Positions 3,439 through 48,792 of a stretch of DNA of 64,000 bases are shown here, one piece after another. Source of the DNA: Muscardinus avellanarius (Eukaryota > Chordata > Mammalia > Rodentia > Gliridae); assembly GCA_963383645.1 (NCBI GenBank), contig OY726560.1, positions 32,431,003 through 32,495,002 on the forward strand. The letters are read 5' to 3'. The position numbers were made by a program, and so were the translations under genes. The notes beneath the pieces were generated by a model. That model was not told where the DNA came from. It saw only the letters and a program-made list of their open reading frames with translations, and searched no databases. The first letter of the stretch is position 1. The number at the start of each line of letters is the position of its first letter.

Positions 3439-3453
3439 TAAACAATTATTTTT

Positions 3454-3838
3454 TCTGATTATTCATTTTATTTATTTTATATATATTTTTATTTATTTAT
3501 TATTTTTTGTAATCATACAGCACTTTGGAATACAAGACTTGAGAGGATATATAAGCACACATCATCCAATAAGCACTCATCCAATCCCCATCCCATTCCC
3601 TCCCCCTCTGTCGATCCCATGCTTAATTGGTAATTATCTTTGATATATTTGTTTACACACCTCATGAGTTTTAAAGAGATTCCATCCTCCCCTATCCCCT
3701 CCCCTCTGATTGGTCACCTTAATTGCTTCTCTAAAGGGCCTTTTCTACTACTCGACCTCCTCCTGTTACCCCTTTCCTCCTAGTTCTTGCTAATTAGGGG
3801 AAGCATCTGGATTTTATTTTCTGCACTATTTCTATGTG
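3454..3838 (-). repeat. L1-like ORF2 end and 3' UTR forming the 3' part of the composite element
   Basis: On the minus strand the words cagatgcttcccctaatt, taggaggaaagggg, aggtgacc and gggatggggattggatgag occur in the same order as in the L1 3' ends at 18803-19185 and 62640-62946. This is probably the part that lets L1 proteins recognise the RNA. The tail is A/T-rich rather than pure poly(A). Confidence 0.8.
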
Positions 3839-3857
3839 CATGTCGCATTGCAAGTTC

Positions 3858-4775
3858 TGATCCCACTCTTGATGGCCCCAGTAGTGGCCTGGCCACCCAG
3901 GGGACTCTTATCCCGATCTCACTGGCTCCAGCACCGGCTTTGCTTCATGGGAGGCCCCGATCCTGGCCTCGCTGGCCCCCACACAGAACTAACCCCTCGG
4001 ATGGCTCCGTTCCCAGCCTCAGAGGCCCCAGCACTGGCCTAGCCTCATGACAGGCTCCAATCCTGGCCTTGCTGACCCTGGCACAGGCCTAACCACTCGG
4101 CAGGCTCCTATACTGGTCTCACATGTCCCAGCTCCATCCTTGCCTCATGGCAGTTTCCAATCCCAACCTCTCTGGCCCTGGCACCAGCCTTATCCCTCAG
4201 CAGAGTCTGATCCCAGCCTCGGAGGTCCCAGCACCAGTCTTGCCTCACGGCAGGCTCCAATCCTGACCTTGCTGGCCCCGGCACCAGCCTAACCCCTCGG
4301 CTGGCGCTGATCCTTGCCTCAGAGGCCTCAGTAGCACCCTTGCCTCATGGCAGGCTCCGAACCCGGCCTCGTCGGCCCCGGCACTGACCTCACCCCTTGG
4401 CAGGCTCCAATCCCGGCCTTAGAGGCCCCAGCACTGGCCATACCTCAAGGCAGGCTCCAATCCCGGCCTTGCTGGCCTCAGCACTGGTCTAACACCTCGG
4501 CAGGCTCCTATCCAGGCCTCAGAGGCCTTGGCACCAGCCTTGCCTCACAGCAGGCTCCGATCCCGGCCTTGATGGCCCTGGCACTGGCCTAACCCCTCGG
4601 CAGGCTCTGATCCCGGCCTCGAAGGCCTCATCACCAGCCTTGCCTCACAGCAGGCTCTGATCCCGGCCTCGCTGGCCCCGGCACCGACCTAACCCCTTGG
4701 CAGGCTCTGATCCCGGCCTCAGAGGCCCTATAAGCTGCCTTGCCTCACAGCAGGCTCCGATTCGAGCCCCCTCTT
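3858..4775 (-). repeat. GC-rich array of ~50-bp units (VNTR-like), about 18 copies
   Basis: Plus-strand units run through words such as gatcccggcctc, agaggccccagcacc and ggcaggctcc. Two half-unit types tend to alternate (one with gccttgcctcatgg, the other with cctaacccctcgg), giving a ~100-bp higher-order period. Overlapping proline-rich frames on the plus strand are by-products of the repeat. Confidence 0.9.
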
Positions 4776-5300
4776 TACCCAGCAGGTTGTCCCACATTCC
4801 CTAGGTACATGGTAGTAGTATTCCACCTGTGAGGTAATTTCTTCAAAAGTCCAAGGTGTATTACATCAGATCTCTGCCTCCCCTGAGTACTTGCCGCTGC
4901 CAATGCGACTGTCTCCACCATTTCAAATCTTTCCCAAGCTCTTTTCCTATACTGCACAATGTCTAGTGTTCCAAAGCATGCGCGATGGTAGCATTTAACC
5001 TTTGGGGTAATTTCTTTAGAGGATCAGGGTGGGTTGGATCAGATGTCTGCCTCTCCCAAAGACAAGTCTCCATCGCCATCTCAGCCACTGCTGCTGCCAC
5101 CGCCTTCCTCCTAGGTCTCCACTAGACTCTCTCCTTACAGGTGATATCCAGAATTCTTAAAGATGTAAAGAAGCCTCAGTCCTACTTCGCGGGGAATTTT
5201 TCCAAAAGCTCCAGTTCAGATGTATATGTTTTGTCTGCATCTCCAATATTCTAGCTGCCGCCTCGGCCATCTTAACCCCTCTCAAATATTTTTCTTTTTC
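4776..5300 (-). promoter_or_regulatory. leader-like region of the composite element with diverged internal repeats
   Basis: On the minus strand AAGATGGCCGAGGCGGCAG near 5270 resembles the start of the L1s in this window (GGAAGATGGCGAC). Two diverged repeats follow, each with 'gaggcaga.atctgat' and 'aagaaattacc', around 4805-4885 and 5005-5065. It could derive from an older L1 5' UTR. Promoter activity is inferred, not seen. Confidence 0.5.
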
Positions 5301-5407
5301 TTTTCCCTTTTTTTTTTTTTTTTTTTAAGAGAAGAGAGTATGTGTGGTTTGGGGAGGATGTGGGATCAGGCACTCGGTAATGATGAAATTTTTTTTCATT
5401 CCAGGTG

Positions 5408-5620
5408 TGTGGGGTGGGGGTCACCTAAGGGTGCCCTGCCCATGCCCACTCACGCGCCCAGGGTCAGGGCCTGGCGGCCAGGACCTCAGGGTTCTTCTGC
5501 GTGGGGAGGAGGTCGCCTAAGGGTGCCCCGCTAGCGCCTGCCACCTGCCCAAGGTCGGGGCCTGGCGGCCGGACCTCAGGGTCCTTCCAGGTGGGGAGGG
5601 GGTTGCCTAAGGGTGCCCCC
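5408..5620 (-). promoter_or_regulatory. GC-rich ~92-bp tandem repeats at the 5' end of the composite element
   Basis: The word gcctaagggtgcccc recurs (as cacctaagggtgccctg in the first copy) at about 5422, 5512 and 5605, with GGGGCCTGGCGGCC between. The element starts inside this array. Tandem GC-rich monomers at a 5' end are a known promoter form in rodent L1s; that role here is inference. Confidence 0.7.
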
Positions 5621-5635
5621 TAAACAATTATTTTT

Positions 5636-41368: not shown

Positions 41369-41493
41369 CTGGGCGTGGTGGTGCATGCTTGTAATCCCTG
41401 CACTTGGGAGGTGGAGACAGGAGGATCGCACAGGTTCGAAGCCAATCTCGCTGGTTTAGGAGACCCTGTTTCCAAATAAAAATATAAAATAGG
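41369..41493 (+). mobile_element. deletion-subfamily SINE, left part (continues at 48738)
   Basis: 'gctgggcgtggtggtgcatg' start, shortened B1 half ('ccaatctcgctggtttagga'). The element is cut by the full-length L1; its ID half is at 48738-48800. Confidence 0.92.
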
Positions 41494-42970
41494 GAGACTT
41501 CCGGGAAGATGGCGACGGAGGAAAGCGGCACTTACAAGTCCCGCTAACAATCCAACTCTACTACCTCAAAACCAGCGCTTTTCAGAGCCAGAAAACACCA
41601 CAGCAAAGAAATAAAAACGGTAAATACAAGGGACAGAGAAAAAGGGCTGGAAAAACAAGACACCGGAAAAAAACCAGCCCGAAGTGCCGCGCCCTCGCGG
41701 CGCGGAGCGGTCGGAGCAGCCGGAGCGGCCAGAGCCGCAGCGCGGATTGGGGGGAGCCGCGGAGCGGAGCGGCCTGAGCAGCCGGAGCAGCCACAGCCGC
41801 GGCGCGGAACGGCCGGAGCGGCCAGAGTGGCCAGACCCGCGGTACAGAGCAGCTGGAGTCGCGGTTCCGAGCAGCTGAGCAGAGCGGCCAGAGCAGCCGA
41901 GCGGAGCGGCCAGAACAGCCGGAGCAGTCAGAGCTGCAGCGCGGATTGGCTGGAGCGGCGGCGCGGAGTGGCCGGAGCCGCGGTGTGGAGCAGCCGGAGC
42001 AGCCGGAACAGAGTGGCCAGAACAGCTGAGCGGAGCGGCCAGAGCAGCCGGAGCGGAGCGGCCAGAACAGCTGGAGCAGCCAGAGCCGCGTCGCGGAACG
42101 GCCGGAGTGGCCGGAGTGGCCAGACCCACGGCGCAGAGCAGCCAGAGCCGCGGCGCAGAGCGGCCGGAGCGGCGCGGCCTACATCTCCCCTAGCAACAAC
42201 AGGCTCCAGAGAGGAGGGAGACTCAAAACAGAGCTCAAATCCAGAGAGGAGGTACTCTGGCCTCGCGGCCTAGGATGCAGAAGCAGCGTCTTACTGCTGG
42301 CGGCAGCGGCGAGTTCACCGGACGGCCCTAGACCAACCCACTCAACCAGCCACCAGGCGCCTGAAAGGAGGGGTGGACAGCGAGCCGAGGTGAGTAGGTG
42401 CTGAACAGCCGGGCGGCAGTCAGCAGTTTTGTTGGTGCAGGGAACATCTAAAGCTCCCAAGGGCTGGGTGCAGCACAACTGGCAAGGACTCAGAGCAGAG
42501 TTCAAAACCAGAGAAGAAATACGCCACATCATGGCCGAGGGAGTGGCAGTGGTGCCATATTGCCAGTGGCGGCAGCAGTGAATACACCGAGTTCACTACA
42601 GCTCCATCAGCGCACTCAACAACCGTGAGTCAAATTGCGGCCCCTAGGGGAGAAATCCCAGTACTGCACTCCCAGGGACTTGCGCAGATAGTCTCCCTGG
42701 GTCGGAGATTTTAGCAGTGCAGCCCAGTGGGGGAGTGGCAGTGGCAGAGATATCATACCATAGTCACAACTCCCCACTGGAGAACACCCAACTTGGCACC
42801 CTCCACGGTCTAAGCAGCCTTGATTGACTCCCTTGGTCTGAGACTTTGTGATACAACACAGTAAAGGAGTAGTGGTGACTGAGATACCATAGACTAGAGA
42901 TCCAGAGCATCTTAAGTGAACTCGTAGTGACTCAGGGAAGAACCCAGAGAAGGCACAAACTTCCAAAATC
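41494..42970 (+). promoter_or_regulatory. 5' UTR / promoter of the full-length L1
   Basis: Starts GAGACTTCCGGGAAGATGGC, as in the half-L1s. It is CpG-rich, with a VNTR at 41690-42180, then a segment shared with the half-L1 leaders ('gtgagtcaaattgcggcccc' region, ending 'aagtgaactcgtagtgactc'). Internal promoter function is inferred from L1 biology. Confidence 0.8.
41690..42180 (+). repeat. CpG-rich VNTR in the L1 5' UTR
   Basis: Irregular repeats of GAGCGGCCAGAGCAGCCG-type words, roughly 9-27 bp per unit. The half-L1 5' UTRs lack this block. Long frames across it on both strands (alanine/arginine/serine-rich) come from the repeat. Confidence 0.9.
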
Positions 42971-43888
42971 ATGGGAAAGAGAAATAACAATGGAGCATTG
43001 AATGCCAACAACACCACAACATCAGAATCTGATAACAAAGAAACCCAAAGATCTCTAGAAGATCAAATTAGGAAAATAACTTTAGAAATAATAGAGGACT
43101 TTCGAAAAGAATTTAGAGAGAGTCAAAAAGAGATAAAGGATGCAATTAATGAAGTAAAGGCCTCAATTCAAAGTATAAAGATCAGATTAGACCACATGGA
43201 GAATAGAATCTCGCTTCTTGAAGATGATCATTCTAAAAATGAACGCATAGTTTCTAATTTAGAAAAAAAAACCCGACAGCAGGAATCTGACATTGAAGAA
43301 ATATGGGCCCATTTCAAGAGAGCTAACCTAAGAATAATTGGAATAGAGGAGGGAAAAGAAGGTGAAACCAAAGGGATCAACAATCTCTTCAAGGAAGTAA
43401 TAGCAGAAAATTTTCCAAACATAGAGCAAGAGGTCGATACACAGGTCCAGGAAACTTATAGAACTCCCTTTAGACAGGATCAGAGAAGAGGATCCCCACG
43501 CCACATAATTGTCAAAATGACCACTGTGGAAGCCAAGGAGAGAATCTTAAAGGCAACAAAAACAAAAGGCCATGTGACATACAGAGGCAAACCAATTAGA
43601 ATCACTCCAGACTTCCCAAACCAAGTTATGAAAGCCAGAAGGGCTTGGAGTAACATATTCCAAACTCTGAAAGAAAACAACTTCCAGCCAAAAATTTCCT
43701 ACCCAGCAAAACTATCCATCAAATTAGATGGGGAAATAAGAAGCTTCCATGACAAACAGCAACTGAAGGAATTTATGTCTTCAAAACCAGCGCTAGAGAA
43801 AATACTCAAGGAGATTAACTGCAAAGAGGAAATGGGTAATTCACGCCAGAACCAAAGAAACAAGAATTCCCATCCAGCAGACAACTAA
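42971..43888 (+). CDS. LINE-1 ORF1p
   Basis: Intact 305-residue ORF1, the RNA-binding partner of ORF2p in the L1 ribonucleoprotein. N-terminal low-complexity stretch, coiled coil around residues 25-115 (heptads such as 'IRLDHMENRISLLEDD'), RRM-like core at about 120-210 ('ANLRIIGIEEGKEGETKG'), and C-terminal domain to residue 290 ('RRAWSNIFQTLKENNFQPK', 'SIKLDGEIRSFHDK'). The start ATG is preceded by a purine-rich context. Here the GTG found upstream in the half-L1s is out of frame. It is very similar to the half-L1 ORF1s, with differences spread over the coiled coil and C-terminus, so the families are closely related. Confidence 0.95.
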   Translation: MGKRNNNGALNANNTTTSESDNKETQRSLEDQIRKITLEIIEDFRKEFRESQKEIKDAINEVKASIQSIKIRLDHMENRISLLEDDHSKNERIVSNLEKKTRQQESDIEEIWAHFKRANLRIIGIEEGKEGETKGINNLFKEVIAENFPNIEQEVDTQVQETYRTPFRQDQRRGSPRHIIVKMTTVEAKERILKATKTKGHVTYRGKPIRITPDFPNQVMKARRAWSNIFQTLKENNFQPKISYPAKLSIKLDGEIRSFHDKQQLKEFMSSKPALEKILKEINCKEEMGNSRQNQRNKNSHPADN

Positions 43889-43933
43889 GCAAAGAAGAAT
43901 AAACAGTATCTCAAACAGAAATAAGATCTTAAC

Positions 43934-46900
43934 ATGTTGGGAATTAAAAATTATCTCTCTATAATCACACTGAATGTAAACGGCCTCAACTCCCCAATAA
44001 AAAGACATAAAGTGGCAAAATGGATTAAAAGCCAGAATCCATCCATCTGCTGCTTACAAGAAACACACCTCACAAGTAAAGATAGGAACAAACTCAAGGT
44101 AAAGGGCTGGAGCAAGGTAATCCATGCTAATGGTACTCGAAGACAAGCAGGAGTAGCAACTATGATATCAGACAAGTTAGACTTCAAACCCAAACTTATT
44201 AGAAGAGACAAAGAAGGTCACATTTTACTGGTAAAAGGAATAGTCCAGCAAGAGGAAATAACAATAATCAACATGTATGCCCCAAACATAGGGGCAGCTA
44301 CTTTCATAAATCAAACTCTTTGTGACATGAAGCCACACATAAATCCCAACACAATAATACTGGGAGACTTTAACACACCTCTCACAATACTAGACCGATC
44401 TTCCAGACAAAGGGTCAGTAAAGATGTCTCAGAACTAAAGAACACCATTAACCAAATGGACCTTTTGGACACATATAGAATATTTCACCCAACTACAGCA
44501 GAGTTTACATTTTTCTCAGCTGCTCATGGAACCTTCTCCAAAATAGATCACATCCTGGGACACAAAATGAGCACTAGCAAATTTAAAAAATGTTACATAC
44601 TTCCCTGTGTCATTTCAGACCATAATGGAATGAAACTAGAAATCAACTATAAGAAGACCCAGAGAAACAACATAAACATGTGGAGACTGAACACCACACT
44701 TCTGAATGAAGAATGGGTCATAGAAGATGTAAGAGGTGAAATCAAGAAATTTCTAGAAACAAATGAAAATAAAGAAACAACATATCAAAACCTCTGGGAC
44801 ACTTTGAAGGCAGTATTAAGAGGAAAATTTATAGCACTGAGTGCTCACATAAGAAAAACAGAAAATCTTCAAATAAATAGCCTTATGACACACCTCAAAG
44901 CCCTTGAAAAGCAGGAACAATTGAACCCCAAAGCCAGCAGAAGACAGGAAATTATTAAAATTAGAGCAGAAATTAACGAAATAGAGAATAAAAAAACAAT
45001 ACAGAAAATCAACAAAACCAAAAGCTTGTTTCTTGAAAAAATTAACAAGATGGATAAACCACTAGCCAACCTAACTAAAAAAAAGAGAGAATCAACCCAA
45101 ATTATGAAGATAAGGGATGAAAAAGGAGACATTACTACTGACAGCGTAGAAATCCAGAGGATTATCAGAAACTACTTTGAAAAACTATACTCCAACAAAA
45201 TGGAAAATCTGGAGGAAATCGACAACTTCCTAGATAAATACAACCTTCCTAAACTGAGTCAAGAAGATATAGAACACTTAAACCAACCAATAACAATCAA
45301 AGAGATTGAAATAGCAATAAAGAGCTTACCATCAAAGAAAAGCCCAGGACCATATGGTTTCCCAAGTGAATTCTATAAAACCTTTATAGGAGAACTAATC
45401 CCAATACTACTCAAACTATTTCGGGAAATAGAAAAAACCGGGACTCTCCCAAATACATTCTATGAAGCCAACATCACACTAATACCCAAACCGAATAAAG
45501 ACAGTTCAAGGAAGGAAAACTACAGGCCTATATCTCTGATGAACTTGGATGCAAAACTATTAAACAAAATACTAGCAACACGCATTCAAAACCACATCAA
45601 GAAAATCATTCACCATGACCAGGTAGGGTTCATCCCAGGGATGCAAGGCTGGTTCAATATACAAAAAACAATCCATGTAATTCATCATATAAACAGAATC
45701 AAAGACAAAAACCACATGATCATCTCAATAGATGCTGAAAAAGCATTTGATAAAATTCAACATCCATTTATGATAAAAACACTGCAGAGAATTGGAATAG
45801 AAGGAACATATCTCAACATTATTAAGGCAATCTACAATAAGCCCACTGCCAACATCATATTAAATGGGGAAAAACTTCAAGAATTTCCCCTAAAAACTGG
45901 AACGAGACAAGGATGTCCACTATCACCACTTCTCTTCAATATAGTACTAGAGACTCTAGCCAGAGCAATAAGGCAAGAAAAGGAAATCAAAGGAGTACAA
46001 ATAGGAAAAGAAGAACTTAAGCTTTCACTATTTGCAGATGACATGATACTATATTTAGAAAACCCAACAAACTCAACCAAAAGGCTTATAGAACTGATCA
46101 ACAAATTCAGCAAGGTATCTGGATACAAAATCAATCTTAAAAAATCAGAAGCTTTCCTGTACACCAACCATAAATCCACTGAAAAAGAAATTCAGAAAAC
46201 ACTTCCACTCAGGATCTCCCACAAAAAAATAAAATACCTAGGAATAAACTTGACCAAGGAAGTAAAAGATGTCTACAAAGAAAATTATAAAACACTGAAA
46301 AAAGAAATCGAAGAAGATCTTAGAAGATGGAAAGACCTTCCATGTTCATGGATTGGCAGAATTAATATCATTAAAATGGCCATCCTCCCAAAAGTGATCT
46401 ACAGATTTAATGCAATGCCCATTAAACTACCAAGATCATTCCTCACAGACATAGAAAAATCAGTCCTTAAATTTATCTGGAATAACAAAAAGCCCAGAAT
46501 AGCCAAGGTAGTTCTCAGCAACAAAAACCACGCAGGAGGAATCACAATACCTGACTTTAAACTATACTACAAAGCCATTGTAATAAAAACAGCATGGTAC
46601 TGGCAAAAGAACAGATATATAGACCAATGGAGCAGAATAGAAGACCCAGAAACAAGTCCACACACTTTCAGCCAATTGATTTTTGACAAAGGGGCCAAAA
46701 ACATACACTGGAAAAAAGATAGCCTCTTCAACAAATGGTGTTGGCAAAACTGGTTAACCATATGCAGAAAATTGGATGTTAATCCCACTTTTTCACCCTG
46801 TACAAAAGTCAACTCACGATGGATCAAAGACTTGGAAATTAAACCAGAGACCTTGAAGCTCCTTGAAGAGGGCATAGGTCCAACACTACAACACATAGGC

Positions 46901-47761
46901 ACAGACAAACATTTCCTCAACAAGACCCCAAAGGCACAACAAATTAAAAGGAGAATCAATACATGGGATTGCATGAAACTGAAGAGCTTCTGTTCAGCAA
47001 AGGAAACTATCAAGAACCTCAATCGAGAGCCAACAGAATGGGAGAAGATTTTTGCCACCTACACCACTGATAGAGGACTAATATCTAGAATATACAGAGA
47101 ACTCAAGAAACTCAACACTAAGAAAACAAAGCATCCAATAACAAAATGGGCAAATGAACTAAATAGACACTTCACAAAAGAAGAAATTCAAATGGCCAAT
47201 AAATGCATGAAAAAATGCTCAACATCACTGGCAATCAGAGAGATGCAAATCAAAACTACCCTGAGATTTCACCTAACTCCAACTAGAATGGCCATCATTC
47301 AAAACACAAACAACAACAGATGCTGGTGAGGATGTGGAGAAGTGGGAACTCTAAGACATTGTTGGTGGGATTGCAAATTAGTGCAACCACTTTGGAAAAC
47401 AGTATGGAGAATCCTCAGAAGAATGGGAACAAATCTTCCATTTGATCCAGCAATACCACTGTTGGGTATCTACCCAAAAGAAAAGAAACCAATCTACCAA
47501 ACTAATGCATGTGTATCTATGTTCATAGCTGCACAATTCACCATAGCCAAACTATGGAACCAGCCAAGATGTCCATCAACAGATGAATGGATTACAAAAC
47601 TGTGGGATATGTACACAATGGAATTTTACTCAGCCATCAAAAAAAACTCAATTACATCATTTTCAGGGAAATGGATGGAACTGGAGGACATTATGCTAAG
47701 TGAGATTAGTCAGGCACAAAAAATAAGAAATCAGATGCTTTCCCTAATATGTGAGAGTTAG
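43934..47761 (+). pseudogene. LINE-1 ORF2 (endonuclease-reverse transcriptase) with one premature stop
   Basis: ORF2p nicks target DNA and reverse-transcribes L1 RNA. From the ATG at 43934 the frame runs 1,131 codons to an in-frame TGA (47327-47329), then continues in the same frame to 47761, for 1,275 codons in all. Visible: the apurinic-type endonuclease (residues ~1-240) with 'LNVNGLNS', 'LQETH', 'NMYAPN', 'ILGDFNT' and 'SDHNGMK'; the reverse transcriptase with '[15 protein letters not shown]', '[12 protein letters not shown]', '[12 protein letters not shown]' and the catalytic FADD at 700-703. The TGA falls inside the C-terminal cysteine-rich motif (CW*GCGE). Where other L1s have Arg or Lys, a CGA-to-TGA CpG transition is a likely cause. 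The truncated protein keeps EN and RT but loses 144 C-terminal residues. Confidence 0.96.
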
Positions 47762-48725
47762 GGAGAAATGGGTCATAGGAGGAACTCTTGGAAGAGGATC
47801 AGTAACTTTTAACTCTGTTTACATTGTCTTTGGATATACAATATTTTTTTTTTTAGGGAGTTTGTTTACTCTTTTGTTGCCTGTGCCATTGAAATCATAT
47901 CCAAGAAATCACTTCCAATTTCAATGTTGTGAGGTTTTATGACCCAGATTTTCTTCTAAAAGCTTATAGTATTAAGATTTATATTTAGGTCTTTTATCTA
48001 TTTTGAGTTAATATTTGTATATGTGTTAGGTAAGGGTCCAATTTTATTCTTTTTCATTTATTATTATCTTTCAACAATATTTAGTTAAAAGACTAGTATT
48101 TCCTCCACCAAAAGTTCATGGAAACCTTGTCAAAAATAACTTGACAATGTATGGAAGAATTTATCTCTAGGTTTTTATTTAGCTCCAACGGTTTATATAT
48201 CTGCCTTTAGAACAGTACTACACTGTTTCAATTATTGTAGCTTTATATGGTTTGAAATCAGAAAATATACATCTTCTAGCTTTGCTCTTCTTTGAGACTG
48301 TTTTGGGGTATCTAGAGTCCATATTCCATATCATGATAGATTTTTTCTGAAAAATAAATAAATAAATAAATGTATGATAGTTTCACCTAAAAAAAAAAAA
48401 AGAAAAAATATTCTCTGGTAAGAAAGAAAGCAAAAAGAAATATTGAAATGTTATCTTTAAGTCATCAAAAGTTTGGTACCAGACAAATGAAACTGTTATG
48501 TGAGATTATCAATGTTAATATTGTATAAATTGCTATAATACTAGATGTCAACCAGTAAGCCAAGCGTGGGAAGGAGGGATGGGGAGGGAATGGGGTGGGG
48601 ATCGTGGTAGGGGCTAACTGGGCGAGATGTGCATGTATGTCTACAAAAGTATTTTCTTTATACCACTATGATGTATGAATATATTGCACCAATAAAAAAT
48701 AAATTAAAAAAAAATATATATATAT
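47762..48725 (+). other. 3' UTR of the full-length L1
   Basis: The first ~36 bases match the ordinary L1 3' UTR (gaaatgggtcataggaggaa). An abrupt switch to antisense ORF2 sequence follows at about 47798, and the ordinary L1 end resumes near 48545 ('atgtcaaccagtaagccaag', 'ggatggggagggaatgggg', 'gcaccaataaaaaata'). Confidence 0.88.
47798..48545 (-). repeat. antisense L1 ORF2 segment in the L1 3' UTR
   Basis: Read on the minus strand, opposite to the L1, this follows degraded ORF2 order ('ttatttttgacaaggtttcc', 'gacccttacctaacacatat'-type words, 'ggcacaggcaacaaaagagt'). It matches the half-L1 segments but stops about 170 bp earlier at its ORF-proximal end. Confidence 0.85.
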
Positions 48726-48737
48726 ATATAAAATAGG

Positions 48738-48792
48738 TCTGGGAGTGTGGCCCAGATGTAGAAGGGTTTCCAGGAGCCCCAGTACCACCAAA

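Follow-up and report, generated by a model that had tools for sequence, protein, structure and literature searches.

The minus strand of the window (the whole stretch of 64,000 nucleotides of Muscardinus avellanarius DNA that was analysed) carries between positions 3439 and 5635 an insert of 2,167 bp bracketed by 15-bp duplications without mismatch (AAAAATAATTGTTTA), and the question raised by this locus is whether the insert stands alone or belongs to a retrotransposon family and, if so, how such a family would be mobilized and from which pieces it was put together. The insert was divided into modules, each of which is given here as read on the minus strand. The target site duplication (TSD) at the 5' end of the element (5621..5635; AAAAATAATTGTTTA in this reading direction, with TT in front of it) is followed by about 2.3 copies of a tandem monomer of ~92 bp (5396..5620; 71% GC, period ~90-92 bp), the length and 5' phase of which vary among copies, and by a link (5285..5395) consisting of a short unique piece that runs into an internal A-rich tract at its end. 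The leader (4770..5284; 515 bp) opens in the window copy with ...GGGGTTAAGATGGCCGAGG and contains close to its start AAGATGGCC (5265..5273), which we take to be readable as a YY1-type motif and which has a similar counterpart at the L1 5' ends read here; AAGATGGCCGAGGCGG, the leader motif singled out in an earlier note made from the letters of this DNA, was likewise found near the leader start, and in 34 of 38 copies the first 46 leader bases include AAGATG. Two related stretches of ~70 bp (75% alike) and a weaker third, with an ATGG motif near each, were seen in the leader of the window copy, which suggests from its sequence that the leader is itself an old tandem array. The VNTR (3850..4769; 64% GC in the window copy) is made of 18 units of exactly 50 bp each with a 20-bp end, the unit types A and B alternating. 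The 3' tail (3454..3849; 396 bp) is an L1 3' end in a form particular to this family, AT-rich at its terminus and containing AATAAA there; sequence alignment shows homology of its portion 3465..3823 to L1, covering the final ~50 bp of ORF2 and the 3' UTR, and the tail includes a G-run tract of G-quadruplex type (GGGGGAGGGAATGGGATGGGG, 3586..3606). The TSD at the 3' end of the element occupies 3439..3453. The longest sense ATG-ORF measures 50 aa in the window copy and at most 107 aa across 40 copies, and an Rfam search of the element gave no match. The plan that had been read from the letters, namely an ORF-less insert with GC-rich ~92-bp repeats, about 18 two-type units of ~50 bp and an L1-like 3' part, was therefore recovered in each of these respects.

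For identification of further copies, the genome of the same species (2.497 Gb) was searched with the whole element, with the tail and with the leader; 40 loci were scored in each search out of 14,032, 3,304 and 4,345 first-look candidates, respectively, and these candidate numbers are not copy counts. With the whole element (window copy included among the 40), 19 other near-full-length matches were 82-89% identical to the window copy and the remaining scored loci matched piecewise. The same module order was found in the 40 copies examined (the window copy and 39 others), with leader and tail in 40/40 and monomers in 39/40; L043 is 5'-truncated, L046 keeps the leader end only and L028 matches just the first part of the tail. 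The 39 non-window loci scored with the tail alone were 91-95% identical, and VNTR units lay directly upstream of the tail at 30/30 of the tail-search loci that were fetched, six of which (the window copy being one of them) overlap the 40 whole-element loci. With the leader alone the 39 other best genome matches were 92-93% identical. One 24-mer of the leader occurs exactly 496 times in the genome (reversed control, 0) and is carried by 29/40 copies, so that about 680 leader-bearing copies would be expected if this share holds throughout, and this number is likely a floor since less similar copies probably carry the 24-mer less often. The window element is one member of a protein-less family with hundreds of copies in this genome, and its non-repeat junctions are found again at other loci with other TSDs, as the earlier note had anticipated for a family.

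Duplications were scored against a control of 232 comparisons in which 5' and 3' flanks from different loci were paired. The score of the window copy (24.8) exceeded the maximum of these controls (20.8), which upholds the perfect 15-bp TSD claimed around the 2,167 bp. The TSDs vary by locus; 29/40 scored above the 95th percentile of the control and 11/40 did not, and among the 29 a few matches (such as those of L019, L024 and L047) are short or well off the element ends, so that some of the 29 may be chance matches. The endonuclease site was read from 22 copies hand-picked for well-supported TSDs of 11-20 bp; L038 passed the cut for this set and was left out, its match being an A-run. At the insertion site two T positions (17 and 18 of 22 copies) are followed by four A positions (19, 19, 19 and 17 of 22), i.e. 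TT/AAAA, the L1 endonuclease consensus; the A's at the site are possibly inflated because A-rich tails favour TSD calls that start with A, a bias that the upstream T's do not share. The 5' ends of the copies fall at differing monomer phases, the part before the leader measuring 249-641 bp in 21 of the 22 site-set copies (L046, with its partial leader, was omitted), and AATAAA lies close to the 3' end in 31/40 copies. By these sequence hallmarks, the insertions of the family are supported as L1-type.

Every 50-bp unit of the VNTR was typed by the nearer of two templates (A and B). The two types alternated in 732 of 774 steps over the 40 copies, and 34 of the 42 non-alternating steps were the final step, at a degenerate unit before the tail. 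The number of units per copy ranged from 16 to 36, the commonest being 22 (11 copies), 18 (10 copies) and 20 (7 copies). The VNTR lengths vary mostly by 50- and 100-bp steps, which fits gain or loss of one unit or of one A-B pair.

Tails were compared with L1 sequences in the window and in the genome. Of the L1 sequences in the window, one piece is 68% identical to the tail of the window copy over 271 bp, and the large window L1 is 76% identical to it over 67 bp and 70% over 174 bp; in the tail, the ORF2-end part has a broken reading frame. When a joined query (L1 ORF2 end and tail) was used, 2 of the 40 scored candidates were L1 copies that matched straight through (83% overall), and in the other 38 the match was confined to the first 406 of 678 bases; 37 other loci had one identical score over the ORF2 end of the window-type L1. 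The tail alone is 73% and 67% identical to those two L1s, which were the closest among the 40 scored but are too distant for either to be singled out as the helper. The G-run tract was found in the tails of 29/40 copies, in 3/800 shuffled tails and in 4/4 L1 3' ends. By alignment, the tail is L1-derived and has long been separate from L1, and no direct parent L1 was met among the scored candidates. Upstream of the pair of L1s whose tails come nearest, the sequence obtained did not extend to a 5' UTR: in one, the stretch was broken by other repeats and matched ORF2 instead, and in the second it contained no L1 except for one 26-base match.

The large window L1 (about 41492-48740, plus strand) is full-length and has an ORF1 (PF02994, PF17490); its ORF2 includes endonuclease and reverse transcriptase domains and is broken by a single stop, and its 5' UTR consists of a leader with AAGATGGC followed by a GC-rich tandem array of ~480 bp in units of ~22 bp. 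By eye, a TATAAAATAG-like duplication flanks this L1 on both sides. In a search for the ORF1 family, more than 100 of 150 scored matches had one identical score, mostly with an open frame of 329 aa, and these identical scores suggest very recent activity of a second lineage of L1, whose ORF1 is 329 aa long. The UTRs of this second lineage (L078 and L080, those fetched) are unlike those of the window L1. L1s with an open ORF1 were shown to be present in the genome.

Three copies deserve separate mention. At L024 a young composite of the subfamily of the window copy sits in the tail of an older composite, and the older tail is 78% identical to that of the window copy (190 bp) and 77% identical to an L1 over 169 bp; this nesting points to a long family history. 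L052 (1-490) has a different 5' array, made of 70-bp units in 140-bp pairs and joined to the common link, and the remainder consists of a leader 81% like that of the window copy, a short VNTR and a tail at 93%. The array had no match among the other loci of the set L001-L082. From this single copy, the examined sequence of which stops short of the 5' end of the element, the 5' end of the family seems to be exchangeable. In L058 (about 500-660 and 1880-2000) a monomer is joined straight to the VNTR, for which splicing from monomer to VNTR is one reading, and by eye its flanks show a near-identical duplication of unusual length (~120 bp). Divergence was measured as non-CpG mean distance to the column majority; leaders (38 copies) averaged 3.1%, with single copies between 1.7 and 5.3%, and tails (39 copies) averaged 4.6%, with single copies between 1.7 and 9.8%. 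At a substitution rate of 2.2e-9 per site and year, which was not measured in this host, these means would correspond roughly to 14-21 million years, with minima of about 8; because the copies had been selected for resembling the window copy, the dating covers its subfamily only and both age and homogeneity are biased.

Together, the module, TSD, site, tail and ORF results lead to a non-autonomous, apparently L1-dependent family of VNTR composites, and a family of non-autonomous retrotransposons working like SVA/LAVA is a reading that we hold to be very probable. An RNA without protein product would be transcribed from the tandem-repeat 5' region (monomer or leader) and would carry at its 3' end the L1-derived tail with its G-run tract and A-rich terminus. 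This RNA would be taken up in trans by the proteins of L1, the target DNA being cut at TT/AAAA and the RNA copied into the gap, which would leave duplications of 11-20 bp. The central VNTR gains and loses length by 50 or 100 bp at a time, and the 5' array of monomers differs in length between copies and can apparently be swapped for another array; the VNTR may or may not contribute to mobilization. In the earlier interpretation, the part concerning a family without ORFs, with a VNTR and with insertions of L1 type stands, and the choice between a convergent composite and an L1 deletion derivative is left at even weight. Its rodent/sciurid label gained no support from a rodent ID-SINE pattern, for which 0 matches were obtained.

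A deletion derivative would have arisen from an L1 with monomers, leader and VNTR as its 5' UTR, which lost the whole of ORF1 and all but the end of ORF2 and was then multiplied in trans. Its expected L1-derived 3' end is present, since the tail sets in no more than ~50 bp before the end of ORF2 and continues through the 3' UTR, and the 5' UTR of the window L1 follows a parallel plan (AAGATGGC leader and GC-rich tandem repeats over ~480 bp), the leader of the composite likewise opening with AAGATGGC. This origin has, in our estimate, a little less than an even chance of being the right one. Against it, no L1 with this leader was seen among the sequences examined, no similarity was found between the 5' UTR of the window L1 and the monomers, link, leader or VNTR (8 comparisons, z -0.34 to 1.94, 60 shuffles each), and L1s of the youngest ORF1 group (one 5' UTR, two 3' UTRs) matched the element in simple A/T-rich sequence only, the single 5' UTR thus sharing nothing but simple repeats with it. 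The A-rich internal link, moreover, suggests that separately retrotransposed pieces were joined.

The same A-tract between link and leader speaks for an assembly in the style of SVA, in which unrelated pieces, namely a leader, a VNTR and a GC-rich repeat ending in an A-rich tail of its own, would have been joined to an L1 3' end by adjacent retrotransposition, transduction or splicing. Such an assembly, plausible though a shade short of probable, would also accommodate the different 5' array before the common link in L052, the direct joint of monomer and VNTR in L058 and the dissimilarity of the 5' modules to both L1 5' UTRs compared; the L052 argument comes from one copy, however, and among the copies here no separate source locus of leader or VNTR was seen. 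That two independent elements, one forming the left part and the other the right, landed next to each other by chance, or that the locus is a lone one, as the earlier note had proposed for its own refutation, is excluded in practice, the chance of adjacent landing being minute, by identical junctions in 40 copies with differing TSDs and by a VNTR directly upstream in 30/30 fetched tail matches.

In the available parts of the literature, VNTR composites are termed specific to hominoid primates (Lupan et al. 2015, PMC4432496), and one composite family, SVA, is counted in human (PMC5753468). According to the same portions of text, the SVA/LAVA/PVA/FVA elements are non-autonomous and composite, with a GC-rich central VNTR of 30-50-bp units and a 5' tandem array (PMC4432496, PMC5753468), and the present family resembles them in all of these features; its VNTR is GC-rich, of 50-bp units and variable (16-36 units per copy in 40 copies). 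The ancestral SVA2 is described there with two dominant VNTR unit types of 40 and 39 bp (PMC4432496; PMC5753468). Mobilization by L1, shown for the SVA/LAVA group in the passages available (PMC4432496, PMC5753468), is probable for the present family, in which L1-type integration is indicated by TSDs (29/40), by the site in 22 selected copies and by AATAAA (31/40). LAVA (LINE-1-Alu-VNTR-Alu) shares with it an L1-derived part, as far as its name tells. The differences are that the present family lacks a CT-hexamer array (Tandem Repeats Finder) and has a 5' array of ~92-bp GC-rich units instead, that its 3' end, judged by the described parts, is neither SINE-R nor of the LAVA, PVA or FVA type but an L1 ORF2 end with 3' UTR, that its VNTR units of 50 bp alternate almost strictly between A and B, and that the hosts of the known families are hominoids. 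By the hexamer array and by the 3' end, the latter as far as the described parts go, the present family is not a member of the SVA/LAVA group. HAL1 (half-L1) is likewise a non-autonomous L1 derivative, but in the available text it encodes ORF1p (PMC5753468), whereas the present element encodes nothing long; identity with HAL1 was ruled out, as HAL1 keeps ORF1 and the longest sense ATG-ORF in the 40 present copies is 107 aa.

Compared with the window L1, the family has a homologous 3' UTR end with the G-run tract and a AAGATGGC leader in common, and both have GC-rich 5' arrays; the window L1 differs in having ORF1 and ORF2 and in its 5' sequences. In the mouse, L1 elements of the A, F and T types have a monomeric 5' UTR with variable monomer number, differing 5' phases and a replaceable monomer type, and the swapped array of L052 resembles the monomer replacement known from these L1s; the present family differs in that ORF1 and ORF2 are missing and a VNTR stands where the coding region would be. 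No counterpart outside apes was found in titles and abstract starts of open-licence PMC texts, and an unnamed entry in Dfam or Repbase may exist. We propose only tentatively, as a reading not quite evenly balanced against its negation, an independent origin of the SVA design outside apes, in a family with several subfamilies, a two-type 50-bp VNTR, an exchangeable 5' array and a tail that diverged ~30% from L1 while the family was kept up alongside an L1 lineage. If this is true, placing a GC-rich VNTR after a tandem 5' array and ahead of a 3' tail would be a recurrent, selectively favoured route of L1 parasitism. The family would raise the questions of what the VNTR does, why two unit types alternate and why the 5' array is tandem, and it would offer an L1-parasite pair in which the tail of the parasite and L1 3' UTRs are open to direct comparison. 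Having two unrelated families built alike would help to separate accident from need in the design of SVA.
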